A DNA stretch of 25,550 bases from a virus: IMG/VR virus record IMGVR_UViG_3300042905_002654, positions 1 through 25,550 of that record. One strand, 5' to 3'. This document shows, piece by piece, positions 2-22,114 of the stretch. Under the pieces are notes generated by a model, which was not told where the DNA came from, did not search any database, and saw nothing but the letters and a program-made list of their open reading frames with translations. The first letter of the stretch is position 1, and every line of letters begins with the position of its first letter. The translations under genes were made by a program, and so were the position numbers.

Positions 2-910
2 GACAAGCGCATCAAGGAGCTGCTGGACTACATCGGCAAGAACCAAGAAACAGCCGGCTGGCGAGACGAGGCGCTGAAGCGTCTGCTCACTCTCCAAGAT
101 CAGATCTCAGATGAGCTTTCTGGGCTTGCGGATCGAGGCGCGGCGATTGTCGAGGACGGGCAACGATCCGCGATACTCTCCACCACGCAGTACGCCGAGC
201 CTTTAGCGCGAGCCGCCGCAGGAGCCGTGCCCGCTGGAAAGACGTTCCCCTGGGCTACTCTCTCCTCTGATGCGTTTGAAGCGCTTGTGGGACTGTCGTC
301 CGATGGCTCACCACTCTCTACGCTTCTGGACTCGTTTGCTGGCGATACCGGCTTGCTGATTCGCAACGCGCTCCTCGACGGCATTGTCAAGGGCGAGAAC
401 CCGCGCACCGTAGCACAGCGCCTCTCTGTTACCACAAGCGTCTCACGCGCCCGTCTGGAAGCCATAGCGCGAACGGAGATGCTCAGAGCCTCACGCGAGG
501 CAAGCCGCCGAACCTACGCCGCCAATGGTGACGTACTGAGCGGATACCGCAGACTCTCTGCTGCTGACTCGCGCACCTGCGTCTCCTGCTGGGCGCTACA
601 CGGCACGCTCTCTACCACCGCTGAGATCATGCCTAGCCACACCAACTGTCGCTGCACGATGGTTCCTGAGATTCGTTCCTGGGCTGAGATTACCGGCGAC
701 ATGAGCATCCCTGACGAGCGGGAGACGATGGCAAGCGGCTCCGAGCTTTTTTCTATGCTCCCTGAATCCGATCAGGCTGAGATTCTAGGCCCATCGCGCT
801 TTGAACTGTACCGCGCTGGCGCTTCCCTGGAGTCATTCAACGCAACGGAGAACGATCCGCAGTGGGGGCCGACAACGAGAGTCAAGCCGCTCGCCGAGGT
901 AACACAATGA
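2..910 (+). CDS. Phage head morphogenesis protein (Mu gpF / SPP1 gp7 family), 5' end outside window
   Basis: Minor head protein of the Mu F family, which acts with the portal during procapsid assembly and often enters the capsid in few copies. The frame is open from base 2, giving 302 visible residues, so the true start is left of the window; a GTG at 227 is internal. The diagnostic C-terminal pattern is visible at visible residues about 155-218: an ARTE stretch, then DSRTCVSCWALHGT, then HTNCRC. The Cys pairs (193/196 and 216/218) and the two His are the conserved putative metal-binding set of PF04233. The remaining ~85 C-terminal residues are not recognised. The gene overlaps the prohead protease by ATGA at 907-910, and the portal gene is expected immediately upstream. 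Family call is firm; the exact role is from family knowledge. Confidence 0.9.
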   Translation, partial: DKRIKELLDYIGKNQETAGWRDEALKRLLTLQDQISDELSGLADRGAAIVEDGQRSAILSTTQYAEPLARAAAGAVPAGKTFPWATLSSDAFEALVGLSSDGSPLSTLLDSFAGDTGLLIRNALLDGIVKGENPRTVAQRLSVTTSVSRARLEAIARTEMLRASREASRRTYAANGDVLSGYRRLSAADSRTCVSCWALHGTLSTTAEIMPSHTNCRCTMVPEIRSWAEITGDMSIPDERETMASGSELFSMLPESDQAEILGPSRFELYRAGASLESFNATENDPQWGPTTRVKPLAEVTQ

Positions 911-3609: not shown

Positions 3610-4094
3610 TGACTCTAGCTGAGGCGCGCGCGGCCCTCAAGCGCACGGTGCAGGCAAGTGTCGAGCCAATCCTAACAGACGTTGAGATTGACGAGATACT
3701 AGCCGATCACCTGCGCTTCTCCGACTACGTGGCGGCTACCGCCTACATAGTCGGTAGCCGTGTTCGCCTCAGCAATGGGCGAATTTATCGGTGCATTGTG
3801 GCAGGAACAAGCGCCGACAGTGGCCTTGGCCCCGAGTGGCCTGATGCTCCCTATGCCCACACTGGGCAAACCTTTGATGACGGCACAGGTGACTTGCGCT
3901 GGCAAGACGATGGCGCAGACTCTATCGGCGCTTACGACTTAGGCGGCGCAACCCACGATGCGTGGATGCTCAAAGCGGCGAAAGTTTCGGCAAACGTGGA
4001 CTTCTCCGCAGACGGGCAGAGCATCAAGGCATCACAAGAGGCGGCAGAGTACCGCAAACGCGCCAATCTCACCACCGGGGCATGGGTGTTCTAG
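3609..4094 (+). CDS. Head-tail connector (adaptor) with inserted carbohydrate-binding-like domain
   Basis: 161 aa, probably the adaptor that binds under the portal (HK97 gp6 / SPP1 gp15 type). The helical connector signature is split: LTDVEIDEILADHLRF near the N-terminus (22-37), and a C-terminal stretch AWMLKAAKVSANVDFSADG (118-136) followed by SQEAAEYRKRA, which matches the usual connector ending. Between them (about 41-104) is a separate beta domain with YIVGSRVRLSNGRIYRCIVAG, GPEWP and DGTGDLRWQDDG, resembling small carbohydrate-binding (CBM5/12-like) or fibre modules. It begins at a TAATG junction and its TAG touches the next ATG. Connector call moderate; the insert's identity is inference. 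Confidence 0.65.
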   Translation: MTLAEARAALKRTVQASVEPILTDVEIDEILADHLRFSDYVAATAYIVGSRVRLSNGRIYRCIVAGTSADSGLGPEWPDAPYAHTGQTFDDGTGDLRWQDDGADSIGAYDLGGATHDAWMLKAAKVSANVDFSADGQSIKASQEAAEYRKRANLTTGAWVF

Positions 4095-4454
4095 ATGACT
4101 CTCCAGGCTCGCCAGTCGATGCACGTTAAGTATTTTCTCAAGCAGAAGTGCTCTGTCACTCGTGCGTCCATTGGCTCTAAATCTGCCTACGGAGGACGAG
4201 AGAATCGCCTCAAGAGCGTTGCTGAGAATGTCCCTTGCCGGGTTTCTGCTCCGGGGCGCTCACAGATAACAGAGAGCGGGACACGCTCTATCAGCCTCGG
4301 GGATTGGGATGTACTCCTGCCTATCGGCACGGACATCGCGCTAGAGGATGAGGTGCATATCGGTAGCGACACCTACGAGGTAATCGGGAGCGATGCCGGT
4401 AGAGCCGAAGCGCTTTGCCTGACAGTGTATTGCCGCAGAAAGAGCAGCAAATGA
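4095..4454 (+). CDS. Head closure (head-tail joining) protein
   Basis: 119 aa. The protein has the general composition of phage head-closure/stopper proteins (SPP1 gp16 / HK97 gp7 type), which close the portal channel and form the tail docking interface. Visible cues are a basic N-terminal part, VPCRVSAPGR (about 47-56), and the C-terminal beta pattern DWDVLLPIGTDIALEDEVHIG (71-91) and DTYEVIGSDAGRAEALCLTVYC (93-114). The last block, a property described for parameter-rich beta-barrels of this family, is common in head-tail adaptors. The start directly follows the connector's stop codon, and its own stop overlaps the next ATG (ATGA at 4451-4454). Position between connector and tail genes supports the role; sequence evidence is moderate. 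Confidence 0.65.
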   Translation: MTLQARQSMHVKYFLKQKCSVTRASIGSKSAYGGRENRLKSVAENVPCRVSAPGRSQITESGTRSISLGDWDVLLPIGTDIALEDEVHIGSDTYEVIGSDAGRAEALCLTVYCRRKSSK

Positions 4455-4813
4455 AACCAGAAACACCCGTTTATGATGATCTGCTTATCGGTGGCCTGGC
4501 GCAAATGCAGTGGACATGGCCGCTAGAAATGTTCAACACGGGACTTGACGACTTGCTGAACTGGGTATTTCCAGTGACTCCTGGGTGGGTTCAGCCTGCC
4601 TATGATCGCATCATGGGATGGGTAGACAAGATCAAGAGCTGGTTTAGCGCCAATGTCGCAATGGGCTACGAGTACCAAGACGAGGACGAGTTTATCGCCG
4701 ACTTTGAGGATGCAATTGCCTACGCAGAGCGAGAGACGGGCGACACCCGCGCAGAGATAATCGCCCTCATCGATGCTGGGCCGTCTCCTCTCGTTGCTGG
4801 GGAGCCGGGCTAG
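4451..4813 (+). CDS. Unknown 120-aa protein
   Basis: Not recognised. The N-terminal half is rich in Trp and hydrophobic residues (MQWTWPLEMF, LLNWVFPVTPGWVQP, IMGWVDKIKSWF at about residues 18-69) and looks amphipathic rather than a clean transmembrane helix; the C-terminal half is acidic (YQDEDEFIADFEDA). The start at 4451 is chosen for its ATGA overlap with the head-closure gene; a TTG at 4415 would add 12 residues inside that gene. It opens the block of membrane and fibre genes, so a membrane-associated or lysis-accessory role is possible but unproven. Confidence 0.6.
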   Translation: MKPETPVYDDLLIGGLAQMQWTWPLEMFNTGLDDLLNWVFPVTPGWVQPAYDRIMGWVDKIKSWFSANVAMGYEYQDEDEFIADFEDAIAYAERETGDTRAEIIALIDAGPSPLVAGEPG

Positions 4814-4817
4814 TTCG

Positions 4818-5126
4818 ATGGCGCTGATTAACATGATAACTGCACTGCCAGTAGGAGGGCATGGGATTTTGGCATTATCAATACCGGTGGAGTGGGCCGC
4901 AATTATTATTCCCGCGCTACTGCTGCTGCTTTCGGGCGGTATCGCTCACCTAAAAGTCGTTTGGGACATTCGCGGGGAGCTGCGGCACGTTGGCGAGAAA
5001 GTCACTGAAACCCTGGGTGACATCGATCACATTAGGCGCGATGTCGAGGATTTGAAAATTAGCCATGCCACTAACTCGGCTCATCATGAAGAGCGCATCA
5101 CTGCGCTGGAGAAAGTAGCGAGATGA
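4818..5126 (+). CDS. Small membrane protein: one transmembrane helix then coiled coil
   Basis: 102 aa. A single strong hydrophobic segment (about residues 16-42, including AAIIIPALLLLLSGGIA) is followed by a charged helical region to the C-terminus with heptad-like spacing (VGEKVTETLGDIDHIRRDVEDL). This one-span plus coiled-coil architecture is seen in phage lysis accessory or spanin-like proteins and in some holin partners. It lies next to a two-span membrane protein and about 3 kb before the endolysin. The ATG at 4818 lies 4 bases after the previous stop; an internal ATG at 4833 and an upstream ATG at 4773 are alternatives, and the ribosome site is weak. The lysis role is inference. Confidence 0.6.
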   Translation: MALINMITALPVGGHGILALSIPVEWAAIIIPALLLLLSGGIAHLKVVWDIRGELRHVGEKVTETLGDIDHIRRDVEDLKISHATNSAHHEERITALEKVAR

Positions 5127-5478
5127 AAAACAATGTGAACATTACCACGGGAGGACTGCTGATTCTGGTAGTGGTGGGCATTGCGGCTCTGACGACGCTT
5201 ACGGCGCTAGGCAAGCCCGTTCCCGAGGTTCTGTCCGTTGTCATCGCTGGCGCTCTAACGGGGCTACTGGGGCTATCCGTGCCGGGTGGCTCTAAAGCGC
5301 CTCCTGCAGCACTGCCAGGGCAAGCCGACGAGACTGGCCCCGCTGACGATGTCGAGCCAAGCATTGTCGAAGCGGCCATCAATGCCGCTCTGCCTCCTGC
5401 CGTTGGCGCAGTGGCTCCTGAGCTTGCAGGCAACATTGCCAAAGAAATTGGGCGCGTTTTGCGGCGGGGTATCAAGCT

Positions 5479-5482
<4 letters not shown>
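5123..5482 (+). CDS. Putative holin or lysis-associated membrane protein, two transmembrane helices
   Basis: 119 aa. Two adjacent hydrophobic segments are visible: GGLLILVVVGIAALTTLTAL (10-29) and VLSVVIAGALTGLLGLSV (36-53), joined by a short GKPVPE turn. A Pro/Ala/Asp-rich linker (54-80) and a C-terminal helix ending in basic RVLRRGIKL follow. Two spans and a positively charged tail fit a class II holin, which would release the amidase encoded at 8206, but no specific holin family motif is recognised. The ATG at 5123 overlaps the previous stop (ATGA), so the two membrane proteins are probably translated together. Confidence 0.5.
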
Positions 5483-6437
<955 letters not shown>

Positions 6438-19773: not shown

Positions 19774-19918
19774 CGGTGGCCTCCTCGCACGCATCGCAAA
19801 ACTCGCAATCCTGAGCATACTCACACTCTGGATACCACTCCTCGCACGATGGGCAAACGTGCCCCCTCTCCTCGTCGTGGGCACTCTCTAGGTAGATACT
19901 CCGCTGGTCGTCGCTCAT
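19760..19918 (-). CDS. 52-aa six-cysteine protein, probable zinc-binding microprotein
   Basis: Short, easily overlooked. The acidic protein has Cys at 22, 25, 32, 38, 41 and 44, arranged C-P-S-C, then C, then C-E-F-C-D-A-C, plus His14 and His20 (ESAHDEERGH). This spacing fits two small zinc knuckles or one treble-clef-like fold. The start ATG at 19918 forms a TAATGA junction with the upstream stop, with AGAGGGA about 8 bases before it. Its 3' end overlaps the start of the membrane protein gene and contains that gene's ribosome site. Function unknown; small zinc proteins of phages often modulate host factors, but nothing here tells which. Confidence 0.7.
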   Translation of the reverse strand: MSDDQRSIYLESAHDEERGHVCPSCEEWYPECEYAQDCEFCDACEEATDEAQ

Positions 19919-20091
19919 TAGTTGTCCCTCTGCTCCGCACGCTCTAGCATACGCTGATTTACCCGCACGGTGGCCTCAGCATCGGCGAGCACTTCAGTAG
20001 ATGCCCCCGACTGCTTGAGGTTGTGCAGATCCGTTTTAGCTCGGCTAAGTGCCTGCCGGATGGTTTCGATTCTAGATGTTGCGCTATTCAT
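19918..20091 (-). CDS. 57-aa helical protein, first gene of leftward operon
   Basis: Highly charged, almost wholly helical (TSRIETIRQALSRAKTDLHN, then AEATVRVNQRMLERAEQ) and likely coiled-coil. No hydrophobic core segment or motif recognised. ATG 20091 is preferred because an excellent promoter (-35 20126..20121, -10 20103..20098) ends 6 bases before it; an in-frame ATG at 20121 falls inside that promoter. The predicted transcript would begin at the A of this ATG, so translation would be leaderless. It leads the operon with the six-cysteine and membrane proteins. Function unknown. Confidence 0.65.
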   Translation of the reverse strand: MNSATSRIETIRQALSRAKTDLHNLKQSGASTEVLADAEATVRVNQRMLERAEQRDN

Positions 20092-20097
20092 GACTCC

Positions 20098-20126
20098 ACT
20101 ATACCCCGCATAATCCCCCATGTCAA
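20098..20126 (-). promoter_or_regulatory. Leftward sigma-70-type promoter, predicted leaderless start
   Basis: On the minus strand: TTGACA (20126-20121), 17-bp spacer, TATAGT (20103-20098), then GGAGTC and ATG. Perfect -35 and 5/6 -10. Normal spacing puts +1 on the ATG's A at 20091. Confidence 0.85.
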
Positions 20127-20172
20127 GCTACACGACATGAGAAAATAGGCTCATGATATAATACGCGACATG
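20119..20172. promoter_or_regulatory. Divergent control region with nested inverted repeats
   Basis: CATGTC (20119-20124) and GACATG (20134-20139) are inverted around 9 bases; CATGAG (20136-20141) and CTCATG (20150-20155) are inverted around 8. GACATG recurs at 20167-20172 over the start of the rightward gene. The first repeat overlaps the leftward -35, and the second sits just upstream of the rightward -10 TATAAT (20157-20162). The arrangement looks like operator sites between divergent promoters. The rightward -35 is weak (ACGACA at 20132-20137, 19-bp spacer). Confidence 0.6.
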
Positions 20173-20373
20173 GAGAAACTAGACGGGGTTGAATACCTCA
20201 CGGTAGCGGAGGTAGCAGAGCAGAAGGGCGCAAAGCCCGACACGGTGAGGGTGGCTCTCAATCGAGGCACGCTCAAAGGCACGAAGATACTAGGCCGCTG
20301 GCTTATCACACCCTCAGATGCTCAGGAGTGGGCACCGGGGGGATGGGGAGGGGTGGAGAGGTTTAAGAAGTAG
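20170..20373 (+). CDS. Excisionase-like HTH protein (HTH_17 / MerR-like)
   Basis: 67 aa. The protein follows the helix_turn_helix_17 pattern of excisionase-type DNA-binding proteins: EYLTVAEVAEQKGAKPDTVR (8-27), ALNRGTLKGTKILGRWLITP (29-48), then DAQEW. Here the first helix pair binds DNA and the wing KILGRWLITP follows. Candidate roles are excisionase/recombination directionality factor or transcription regulator. The TATAAT at 20157-20162 ends 7 bases before ATG, so the mRNA should be leaderless. No integrase is visible in the window, so a regulator is more likely than Xis here. It is the only rightward gene between two leftward groups and converges on the gene ending at 20389. Confidence 0.75.
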   Translation: MEKLDGVEYLTVAEVAEQKGAKPDTVRVALNRGTLKGTKILGRWLITPSDAQEWAPGGWGGVERFKK

Positions 20374-20388
20374 CACAAAGGCCGGGTA

Positions 20389-20568
20389 TTACAGCCCCAG
20401 CGCACCGGCAATAAAGGCAATCACGAGCTGCACGCACACTGATAGCGCCCACAACACGGCAAGCCCGATGGCACCGACAAAGACAAAGCCCGTGAAGCCG
20501 GCATCGCGGATAGACTCCCACCAGTTTCGAGGGCGGCGTGGTGGCACATGGCGCGGCATCTCAGGCAT
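20389..20568 (-). CDS. Small membrane protein, partner of zinc-ribbon protein
   Basis: 59 aa. A Pro/Arg-rich N-terminus (MPEMPRHVPPRRPRNWWESI) leads into a long hydrophobic stretch, FTGFVFVGAIGLAVLWALSV and VCVQLVIAFIAGALGL (about 25-59), long enough for one long or two short membrane spans ending at the C-terminus. The start at 20568 is chosen by the TAATG junction with the upstream gene; a longer in-frame ATG at 20751 overlaps that gene completely. Coupling suggests the two act together at the membrane. Function unknown. Confidence 0.6.
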   Translation of the reverse strand: MPEMPRHVPPRRPRNWWESIRDAGFTGFVFVGAIGLAVLWALSVCVQLVIAFIAGALGL

Positions 20569-21005
20569 TACAGACTCCACCGGTTCGAGCAATACTGGCA
20601 CTCGAACGCTTTCTTTTTCTTCCCCTGGAGGAATGGGATCGCCAGCCACGCCACCGGCGAGAAAAAGCACCCAATGCATCCGGCAACAGCCTGGCCTGAG
20701 CCGCTCCCGCCCTCTTTGTAGGTGTACTGCTTGACGTTGGGACTCTTGCATTGGGGGCAGACTCCCTGCCTCGTAGCGCGGTTGTAAATTGCCTGCCTGC
20801 GGGATTCTGCGTCGAGGGCTGCTTGCTCCGATTGCTGAATCTCGTACTGCCTGCGCTCAATCTGCTGCTCGGCGGCGGCGAGGTACTCGGCTTTCTTAGC
20901 CTCCAGCGCCCTCTCTGGAGTGCTCGTCTTTGCTCCACAGTAGGGACACCGTGCGTCAGAGTCGTCGATCTCCTTTTTACAGATTGGGCAATAGATTGAA
21001 TTCAT
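20568..21005 (-). CDS. Zinc-ribbon protein with coiled coil and hydrophobic segment
   Basis: 145 aa. N-terminal zinc ribbon CPICKKEIDDSDARCPYCG (6-24), a long charged helix (about 30-80, RALEAKKAEYLAAAEQQIER onward), a second CPQC (about 83-86), a short Gly/Ser stretch, a hydrophobic segment CIGCFFSPVAWLAIPFLQG (about 109-127), and a C-terminal CQYC (about 136-139). Cys pairs at 83/86 and 136/139 could form one split ribbon around the membrane-like loop, a layout seen in zinc-ribbon membrane-associated proteins. ATG 21005 has TAAGAT ending 6 bases upstream, a possible leaderless -10, and only a distant GAGG. Function unknown; membrane association inferred. Confidence 0.75.
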   Translation of the reverse strand: MNSIYCPICKKEIDDSDARCPYCGAKTSTPERALEAKKAEYLAAAEQQIERRQYEIQQSEQAALDAESRRQAIYNRATRQGVCPQCKSPNVKQYTYKEGGSGSGQAVAGCIGCFFSPVAWLAIPFLQGKKKKAFECQYCSNRWSL

Positions 21006-21057
21006 ATCAACATCTTACCTCAGAATAATTTTCTGGAATTTTCCTTGCGTTGTATTA

Positions 21058-21071
21058 CAAACATTTGTTTG
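21058..21071. promoter_or_regulatory. Perfect palindrome, possible operator
   Basis: CAAACATTTGTTTG: 6-bp arms around TT. It lies in the gap between the repressor 3' side and the zinc-ribbon gene, 10 bases upstream of a rightward extended -10. It may bind a regulator of either direction. Palindromes this short can arise by chance. Confidence 0.4.
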
Positions 21072-21078
21072 CATCTTA

Positions 21079-21087
21079 TGTTATACT
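21079..21087 (+). promoter_or_regulatory. Rightward extended -10 promoter facing the repressor gene
   Basis: TGTTATACT: extended TG-N plus TATACT (21082-21087), then CCCGTT and ATG (21094). No good -35 at 16-18 bp. It would drive transcription antisense to the 3' part of the repressor gene and a possible 55-aa ORF (21094-21261). Confidence 0.4.
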
Positions 21088-21130
21088 CCCGTTATGGATA
21101 CTGCGTTAGTCAATTGCCTCGCCGCTCCAC

Positions 21131-21499
21131 TCACTGCTGCTCAGTGGGAGCTGGTTCTGCGATCTGCTGCCCTCTCGACGCTGAGAGACGGCGGATCAGG
21201 TTTAGTATGTACTGCTGATCGTCCGCATCTAGCCGGGATAATTCGACAGCTAGGGCGCTGATTTCCGTGCTATTTGTGCTGGTTATTCCTGCGGCCTCGT
21301 AAACATCATCAATTGGGATGCGGAGCGTTTGCGCTATCAGATTCGCTTCGTCCCTGCTAATTTTGGACTTTAGCCCATTTTCCATGCGAGAGATTACCGG
21401 CTGCTTGACACCGAGGGCAACTGCAAGTGCGCCCTGGGACACTCCCGCCTCTTCTCGAGCCTTTCGGAGCCATACCCCGAAGTTTTGATAGTGATTCAT
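21131..21499 (-). CDS. XRE-family repressor (CI-like), no protease domain
   Basis: 122 aa. N-terminal helix-turn-helix of the XRE/HTH_3 type at about residues 8-62: WLRKAREEAGVSQGALAVAL, GVKQPVISRMENGL and ANLIAQTLRIPIDDVYEAAG. The C-terminal part LSRLDADDQQYILNLIRRL (88-106) looks like a helical dimerisation segment. The LexA/S24 autocleavage domain of lambda CI is absent, so induction would need another trigger such as an antirepressor. It is divergent from the Cro-like gene with palindromic operators between. ATG 21499 is preceded on the minus strand by TTGTGA, 17 bp, TATAAA, then 9 bases, so the leader would be only 2-3 bases; AAGGA overlaps this. Best guess: prophage repressor. Confidence 0.82.
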   Translation of the reverse strand: MNHYQNFGVWLRKAREEAGVSQGALAVALGVKQPVISRMENGLKSKISRDEANLIAQTLRIPIDDVYEAAGITSTNSTEISALAVELSRLDADDQQYILNLIRRLSASRGQQIAEPAPTEQQ

Positions 21500-21508
21500 G
21501 CCTTATCC

Positions 21509-21537
21509 TTTATAACAGATTTTGGTATGAGTCACAA
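21509..21537 (-). promoter_or_regulatory. Promoter of the repressor gene
   Basis: Minus strand: TTGTGA (21537-21532), 17-bp spacer, extended -10 TGT-TATAAA (hexamer 21514-21509), then 9 bases to ATG at 21499. -35 is 4/6, -10 is 5/6. The -10 region includes the half-site TATAACA (plus strand, 21511-21517). Confidence 0.65.
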
Positions 21538-21564
21538 ATGACGAAATAGTTGCTATTTTAGTAT

Positions 21565-21585
21565 AACATTTTATGGTAAAATGTT
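21565..21585. promoter_or_regulatory. Perfect 9-bp-arm operator over the Cro-like promoter
   Basis: AACATTTTA-TGG-TAAAATGTT, 21 bp, exact dyad. It covers the extended -10 of the Cro-like gene, so a bound repressor would block RNA polymerase directly. Best candidate binding site for the XRE proteins on both sides. Confidence 0.8.
21574..21582 (+). promoter_or_regulatory. Promoter of the Cro-like gene, predicted leaderless
   Basis: Extended -10 TGG-TAAAAT (hexamer 21577-21582), then GTTGGC and ATG at 21589. The -35 is weak. Predicted +1 coincides with the start codon's A. Confidence 0.65.
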
Positions 21586-21588
21586 GGC

Positions 21589-21801
21589 ATGAATGAATTA
21601 TCGCCGACACCGGCATTGGCGAGGAGAACACAAAAGCAGATAGCTGAGGCGCTTGGAGTCCACCAGCCTGCCGTGTCTCGATGGCTCAGTGGTAGGGTAA
21701 TACCGAGGCCAGAGACAATGGCGCATCTAGCAGAGGTGATGGGGGTGAGTGCCGAATCCCTCTATACATATCTATGTAACAAGAACATGAGCCGTGCTTG
21801 A
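21589..21801 (+). CDS. Cro-like XRE regulator
   Basis: 70 aa, almost only an HTH domain: RRTQKQIAEALGVHQPAVSR (12-31), WLSGRVIPRPETMAHLAEVM (32-51) and GVSAESLYTYL. The AEALGVHQPAVSRWLSG recognition pattern is typical of Cro/CI-type XRE proteins. It is divergent from the CI-like gene and is followed 31 bases later by a second rightward gene with its own strong promoter and operator. No ribosome site is visible; the -10 ends 6 bases before ATG. Expected role: antagonist of the repressor that commits to lytic growth; inferred from arrangement. Confidence 0.85.
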   Translation: MNELSPTPALARRTQKQIAEALGVHQPAVSRWLSGRVIPRPETMAHLAEVMGVSAESLYTYLCNKNMSRA

Positions 21802-21826
21802 CATATAACATAATATGTTATAGAAT
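21798..21826 (+). promoter_or_regulatory. Early-operon promoter with embedded palindromic operator
   Basis: TTGACA (21798-21803), 17 bp, TAGAAT (21821-21826), then ACAGAC and ATG at 21833. The spacer is the perfect dyad TATAACATA-A-TATGTTATA (21804-21822), 9-bp arms. Binding there would shut the whole early operon. Predicted +1 is the ATG's A. Confidence 0.88.
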
Positions 21827-21832
21827 ACAGAC

Positions 21833-22114
21833 ATGGATAACCTAATCACAAACCTCTCCCGCGCCGGGCTTACCGCCGCTGGAGTCACTCGTCCACAAAC
21901 TAGCATGGACACTATCAAGCTCGAAGCTCGGCACACCGGCTCACCTATCGTTATTGAGCACGTTACAGGCCGCTGGCTCGTCGTTCTCCCTGGTGGCGCT
22001 GTACTCGGTGCAAGCGGAGCACCGCAGGGAGCGTTTTGGGCAGAGCATACGGCATGGGAGATGGACGGCGGCAATGACTACCAAGTCATTGTAGATCGGG
22101 TGGTGGGACGATGA
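21833..22114 (+). CDS. Unknown 93-aa protein, first gene of early operon
   Basis: Not recognised. N-terminal NLITNLSRAGLTAAGVTRPQ is helical, followed by a beta-rich core HTGSPIVIEHVTGRWLVVLP and LGASGAPQGAFWAEHTAWEM, then DYQVIVDRVVGR. The alternating pattern suggests a small alpha/beta fold; no catalytic, membrane or metal motif. Translation should start leaderless from the strong promoter above. It is coupled to the next gene by ATGA at 22111-22114. Early position suggests host takeover or regulation. Confidence 0.65.
   Translation: MDNLITNLSRAGLTAAGVTRPQTSMDTIKLEARHTGSPIVIEHVTGRWLVVLPGGAVLGASGAPQGAFWAEHTAWEMDGGNDYQVIVDRVVGR

Follow-up and report, generated by a model that had tools for sequence, protein, structure and literature searches.

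Candidate leaderless, operator-overlapped transcription units in the control region of a tailed phage with a probable Armatimonadota host

Results and discussion

The control region around the lysis/lysogeny switch of the phage is best read as a series of ordinary sigma-70-type promoters that are repressed via operators over the -10 and would yield leaders of 0-3 nt, with SD (Shine-Dalgarno) sites serving the operon-internal genes and a probable host among the Armatimonadota. We hold this reading with good confidence. A first, sequence-only reading had proposed that the control-region units are leaderless, and this remained the best reading of the sequence, backed by spacing statistics and by operators on the same promoters. 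Motif spacing, its significance, the placement of operators and the operon position of the genes were taken directly from the sequence.

Genome organization

The window, i.e. the whole stretch of DNA analysed, comprises 25,550 bases from IMG/VR and represents a tailed-phage genome from which the terminase end is missing. The segment 1-19.5 kb is occupied by structural genes in rightward orientation (minor head, head protease, major head, tape measure, endolysin); a collagen-like protein with Gly-X-Y repeats is encoded within this structural operon at 5763-6437 (+). The control region at 19.9-22.1 kb has a GC content of 49%, against 58% around it. Besides small leftward genes it comprises genes for an excisionase-like HTH_17 protein, a zinc-ribbon protein, a CI-type repressor and, divergently oriented, a Cro-like protein. 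From 21833 onwards a rightward early operon follows. A CI-like and a Cro-like HTH gene, transcribed divergently and sharing operators that lie over their promoters, characterize the segment as a CI/Cro-type immunity region. A search of the control region for RNA families returned none. Its promoters and lead genes are as follows.

20098..20126 (-): promoter TTGACA-17-TATAGT, 6 nt before ATG 20091
19918..20091 (-): small gene of 57 aa leading a leftward unit, no confident family
20154..20162 (+): extended -10 TGATATAAT (hexamer TATAAT), 7 nt before ATG 20170
20170..20373 (+): HTH_17/excisionase-like DNA-binding protein (PF12728, E 8e-7)
21012..21017 (-): -10 TAAGAT, 6 nt before ATG 21005; weakest promoter, with neither -35 nor TGN
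20568..21005 (-): LITAF-like zinc-ribbon protein, 75% identity to the relative L090
21079..21087 (+): extended -10 TGTTATACT (hexamer TATACT), 6 nt before ATG 21094, overlapped by a weak operator-like site
21094..21261 (+): tentative ORF of 55 aa that runs opposite to the repressor gene and overlaps its 3' end
21509..21537 (-): repressor promoter TTGTGA-17-TATAAA with extended -10 TGTTATAAA, 9 nt before ATG 21499
21131..21499 (-): CI-type repressor (HTH_3)
21574..21582 (+): extended -10 TGGTAAAAT (hexamer TAAAAT), 6 nt before ATG 21589
21589..21801 (+): Cro-like HTH protein, homologue in L237
21798..21826 (+): promoter TTGACA-17-TAGAAT, 6 nt before ATG 21833
21833..22114 (+): lead gene of the rightward early operon, no family assigned, homologue in L090

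Promoter spacing

All seven -10-like hexamers of the sequence-only reading were recovered at the spacings it had given (TATAGT-6, TATAAT-7, TAAGAT-6, TATAAA-9, TAAAAT-6, TAGAAT-6 and TATACT-6), and the perfect TTGACA that it had reported at 17 bp for two of them belongs to 20091 and 21833, and to no other of the seven promoters. Four of the five promoters lacking a perfect TTGACA carry an extended -10 with TGN directly before the hexamer, 21005 being the exception. An exact TANNNT stands 6-7 nt before the ATG at 6/7 control-region starts; the repressor start at 21499 deviates with 9 nt. In dinucleotide shuffles of the 60-nt region upstream of each start, this coincidence had a probability of 3.6e-7. 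Since an in-frame upstream stop (TAA or TAG at -12) could favour TANNNT at 6-7 nt, a further null was built from the first ATGs of 150 other window ORFs; only 3/150 carried the motif at this distance (P = 4e-10). Scanned over offsets of 0-44 nt, the signal was confined to 6 nt (five genes) and 7 nt (one gene), with every other offset at no more than 2/7 genes. Among 32 other gene starts one had TANNNT at 6-9 nt. The predicted folding energy of the 5' mRNA ends averaged -5.8 kcal/mol for the leaderless candidates and -5.9 kcal/mol for late genes and thus did not differ.

The start codons themselves appear not to be misplaced by much, because the HTH domains and the zinc ribbon begin 4-13 residues from these ATGs and the alignment of the zinc-ribbon protein with its relative runs from residue 1.

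The seven hexamers would thus be true -10 elements: two with a perfect -35, four extended and one weak. At a spacing of 6 nt, a +1 at the usual distance coincides with the A of the ATG, and RNA polymerase would start at, or no more than 3 nt from, the A of each start codon. From these predicted transcription starts the lead gene of each control-region unit would be translated as a leaderless mRNA, and later genes of the operon from SD sites on the same mRNA; host ribosomes would accept leaderless and SD-led mRNAs alike.

Operators on the promoters

Repressor-type operators (TATAACATNNNATGGTA) were found only at control-region promoters; in three units (repressor, cro and 21833) they overlap the -10 or the spacer:

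21511..21527: TATAACAGATTTTGGTA, covering the repressor -10
21562..21578: TATAACATTTTATGGTA, partly upstream of the cro extended -10 and partly overlapping it
21804..21822: TATAACATAATATGTTATA, a 19-bp palindrome lying between the -35 and -10 elements of the 21833 promoter

With up to 3 mismatches allowed, the 17-bp element TATAACATTTTATGGTA occurs at these three positions and nowhere else in the window (expected 0.01 per 25.5 kb). A weaker operator-like site at 21069-21083 touches the 21094 promoter. The operators had been detected without the use of promoter prediction, so their coincidence with the same hexamers supports the promoters independently; a CI/Cro switch needs such a placement. 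The CI-type repressor and/or Cro would bind these 17-19-bp operators on the -10 or spacer of three promoters (repressor, cro and 21833) and perhaps on that of 21094. Operator, promoter and start codon would be packed in about 40 bp.

At 21069-21261 (+), the rightward promoter and the 55-aa ORF read antisense into the repressor gene and may serve to control the repressor unit by antisense transcription; the related contig L090 has a rightward promoter in a similar position (TAAAAT-6-ATG at 1891).

Alternative readings

A -10-like hexamer is more easily found by chance in A+T-rich DNA, and the control region is lower in GC than its surroundings. Such an origin for the whole set is nevertheless highly improbable: the shuffles preserved the composition, the offset is sharp at 6-7 nt, and the operators lie on the same hexamers. 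Among the non-gene ATGs of the region, TANNNT at 6-9 nt precedes 3/70, each at a spacing of 8. A partial version is less remote, though we consider it unlikely: only some units (20091, 20170, 21589, 21833) would be leaderless, and 21005 and 21499 would be transcribed from further upstream and use SD-like sequences. No SD core lies within reach at five of the seven starts, and the other two are precisely these, with AGGA 6 nt before ATG 21499 and GAGG 12 nt before ATG 21005, the latter also lacking -35 and TGN. The repressor promoter, however, is a good one for its intergenic region: it combines TTGTGA-17-TATAAA with an extended -10 and is overlain by an operator. A normal transcription start from it would leave the AGGA untranscribed.

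The sequence-only reading had gone further and regarded leaderless initiation as a regulatory mode that separates early and lysogeny genes from late genes. The candidate leaderless starts are indeed confined to the control region, and late genes use SD sites, as that reading had stated. The contrast it drew between early and late was not supported; it is one between lead and internal genes. In the window all SD-led genes are operon-internal and all leaderless candidates are lead genes; the late genes have no promoters of their own there, and the internal early genes behind 21833 use SD cores as well (22544 AGGAGG, 23351 GGAGG, 25355 GGAGG). Leadered promoters also exist, in L100 of the same species and in L090. 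Operon position explains the contrast, so that a regulatory mode is not needed, and we regard it as improbable.

Related phages

Relatives were reached via the terminase of the near-identical contigs L005 and L010. In L005 a single 789-aa ORF (3813-6182) unites the portal with the MuF-like minor head protein; its C-terminal part corresponds to the first ORF of the window (2-910). The large terminase of L005 (2280-3652) is divided into two overlapping frames but is a single intact ORF in L100; the split is probably a sequencing error. A cassette at L100:2300-3790 with the operator-like repeat GTGTGTACATACT is present in L010 and L100 and absent from the near-identical L005.

Close relatives of the control region, as DNA or protein, were not found in phage records. 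The near-identical contigs obtained via the capsid (L003-L005) lack the control region, and synteny among viral contigs was restricted to L012/L090. A scan with a Cro profile yielded G015 as the only true relative; a repressor match in L002, an A+T-rich contig, was dismissed as a chance HTH match.

The contig L090, the nearest relative, shares a syntenic region with identities of 73% (terminase), 75% (zinc ribbon) and 70% (small membrane protein). Its HTH_17 gene at 2981 is preceded by TTGCAC-17-CATAAT-6-ATG with the operator ATGACTTCAGGTCAT. Its homologue of the 21833 gene has a promoter built identically, with TTGCTT-17-CATAAT and the operator ATGACTTTAAGTCAT, followed by a leader of 83 nt that contains a hairpin and the SD sequence AGAGGA. 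The Cro homologue of L237/G015 (53% terminase identity for L237, 37% for Cro) shows TGTTATAGT-6-ATG and the same TATAACATAAT operator half-site, and adjoins a divergent gene with AGGAGG. In L091 the HTH_17 gene has TACAAT-6, and a switch gene of L234 has TTGACA-18-TATAAT-9. Each of these four relatives (L090, L091, L234, L237) thus has one switch gene with a -10 at 6 or 9 nt. In L100, of the same species as the window, inspection of the terminase-portal cassette located TTGACA-18-TATAGT about 90 nt upstream of the first gene. Conservation of the spacing in the same genes was therefore obtained for the Cro homologue of L237 but not for the leadered 21833 homologue of L090. As judged from these predicted starts, leaderless initiation recurs at the switch and is neither phage-wide nor fixed gene by gene. 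If this is right, the same gene can change between leaderless and SD-led expression among related phages, and the trait is governed more by where the promoter sits than by the class of the gene.

The gene pair of LITAF-like zinc-ribbon and small membrane protein (20389-21005 (-); L090:790-1406) is 70-75% identical, other genes being more diverged. In L090 it is preceded by an ImmA/IrrE-like metallopeptidase gene, and a serine recombinase is located nearby.

Host

The host is probably a member of the Armatimonadota, a phylum that has received little study. In 84,980 genomes the best terminase matches were to Capsulimonadaceae (60%), Fimbriimonadaceae (60%) and Chthonomonas (53%), and 38 of 291 Armatimonadota genomes had a match at 1e-20; the nearest cellular relatives of TerL thus lie in this phylum. 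In the terminase tree the phage falls within a 12-row clade (support 90/91) whose sole assigned hosts are Armatimonadota. These are good though indirect indications. A prophage of the same species was not found. The matches and the clade give no support to a host among the Deinococcota or Actinobacteria, at which the sequence-only reading had hinted.

The same reading had suggested a host that translates leaderless mRNAs well. Counts from a simple gene caller in three Armatimonadota genomes agree with this for two of them: TANNNT at 6-7 nt was observed 41 times against 12.9 expected in a Fimbriimonadaceae genome (P 4e-10) and 14 times against 4.6 in Chthonomonas (P 3e-4), both with a weak SD signal. 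Restriction to stop-free hexamers left the enrichment in place (P 2e-6 and 2.5e-3, respectively). Against it stands the genome from Capsulimonadaceae, which shares the top two terminase matches with Fimbriimonadaceae: its SD signal is strong and TANNNT is not enriched. In the Fimbriimonadaceae genome (L174-L193, L275-L294) the TANNNT signal forms a narrow peak at 6 nt upstream of the starts, and the Capsulimonadaceae genome (L134-L153) has no such peak. Among the comparison genomes, the enrichment was present in Nocardia, the expected positive, and absent from Acetobacter and Anaerolineaceae.

A literature search yielded nothing on leaderless expression in members of the Armatimonadota, and in the text of two large surveys (PMC12340547, PMC3160421) the phylum is unmentioned. 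Parts of it (Fimbriimonadia, Chthonomonadia) may use leaderless mRNAs regularly and SD sites little, their temperate phages running the whole control region from leaderless, operator-overlapped promoters. We put this generalization forward tentatively, at slightly less than even odds.

Comparison with known systems

Leaderless genes of Deinococcus-Thermus (PMC12340547; PMC3160421) resemble the present units in a TANNNT about 6-7 nt before the start, an optional -35 and SD-led genes alongside, and so do those of Actinobacteria; here, in contrast, the probable host belongs to the Armatimonadota. In the Yersinia phage PY54 both cI and cro were found to be leaderless by RACE (PMC4488713). Shared with PY54 are the start of both divergent switch genes at the AUG, a strong promoter directly before the ATG and a nearby palindromic operator (PMC4488713). 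The present case differs in that all seven units, small accessory genes included, would be affected, that phage family and host phylum are others, and that the starts are predicted. Lambda cI (PRM) and P22 c2 are likewise CI-type repressors with a -10 at 6 (lambda) or 9 nt (P22) before the ATG, but in these phages the arrangement is limited to the repressor, SD sites or longer leaders being present at cro and at the leftward early genes.

Leaderless switch genes are thus known for one or two per phage, and a whole control region of this kind would be unusual. The present analysis would extend them to such a region and points to the Armatimonadota; if it is right, it provides native leaderless promoters, complete with operators, as a compact set. 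In the annotated records of lambda, P22, TP901-1 and phi11, a -10 of normal quality lies 4-10 nt from the start in 2/15 control-region lead genes, namely lambda cI, a leaderless gene, and P22 c2, for which the annotation places the RNA start 4 nt upstream; this count leaves out the weak GAGAAT before P22 sieB, a gene with its annotated start site at another place. Against these 2/15, the 7/7 of the present control region are significantly more (Fisher P = 2e-4).
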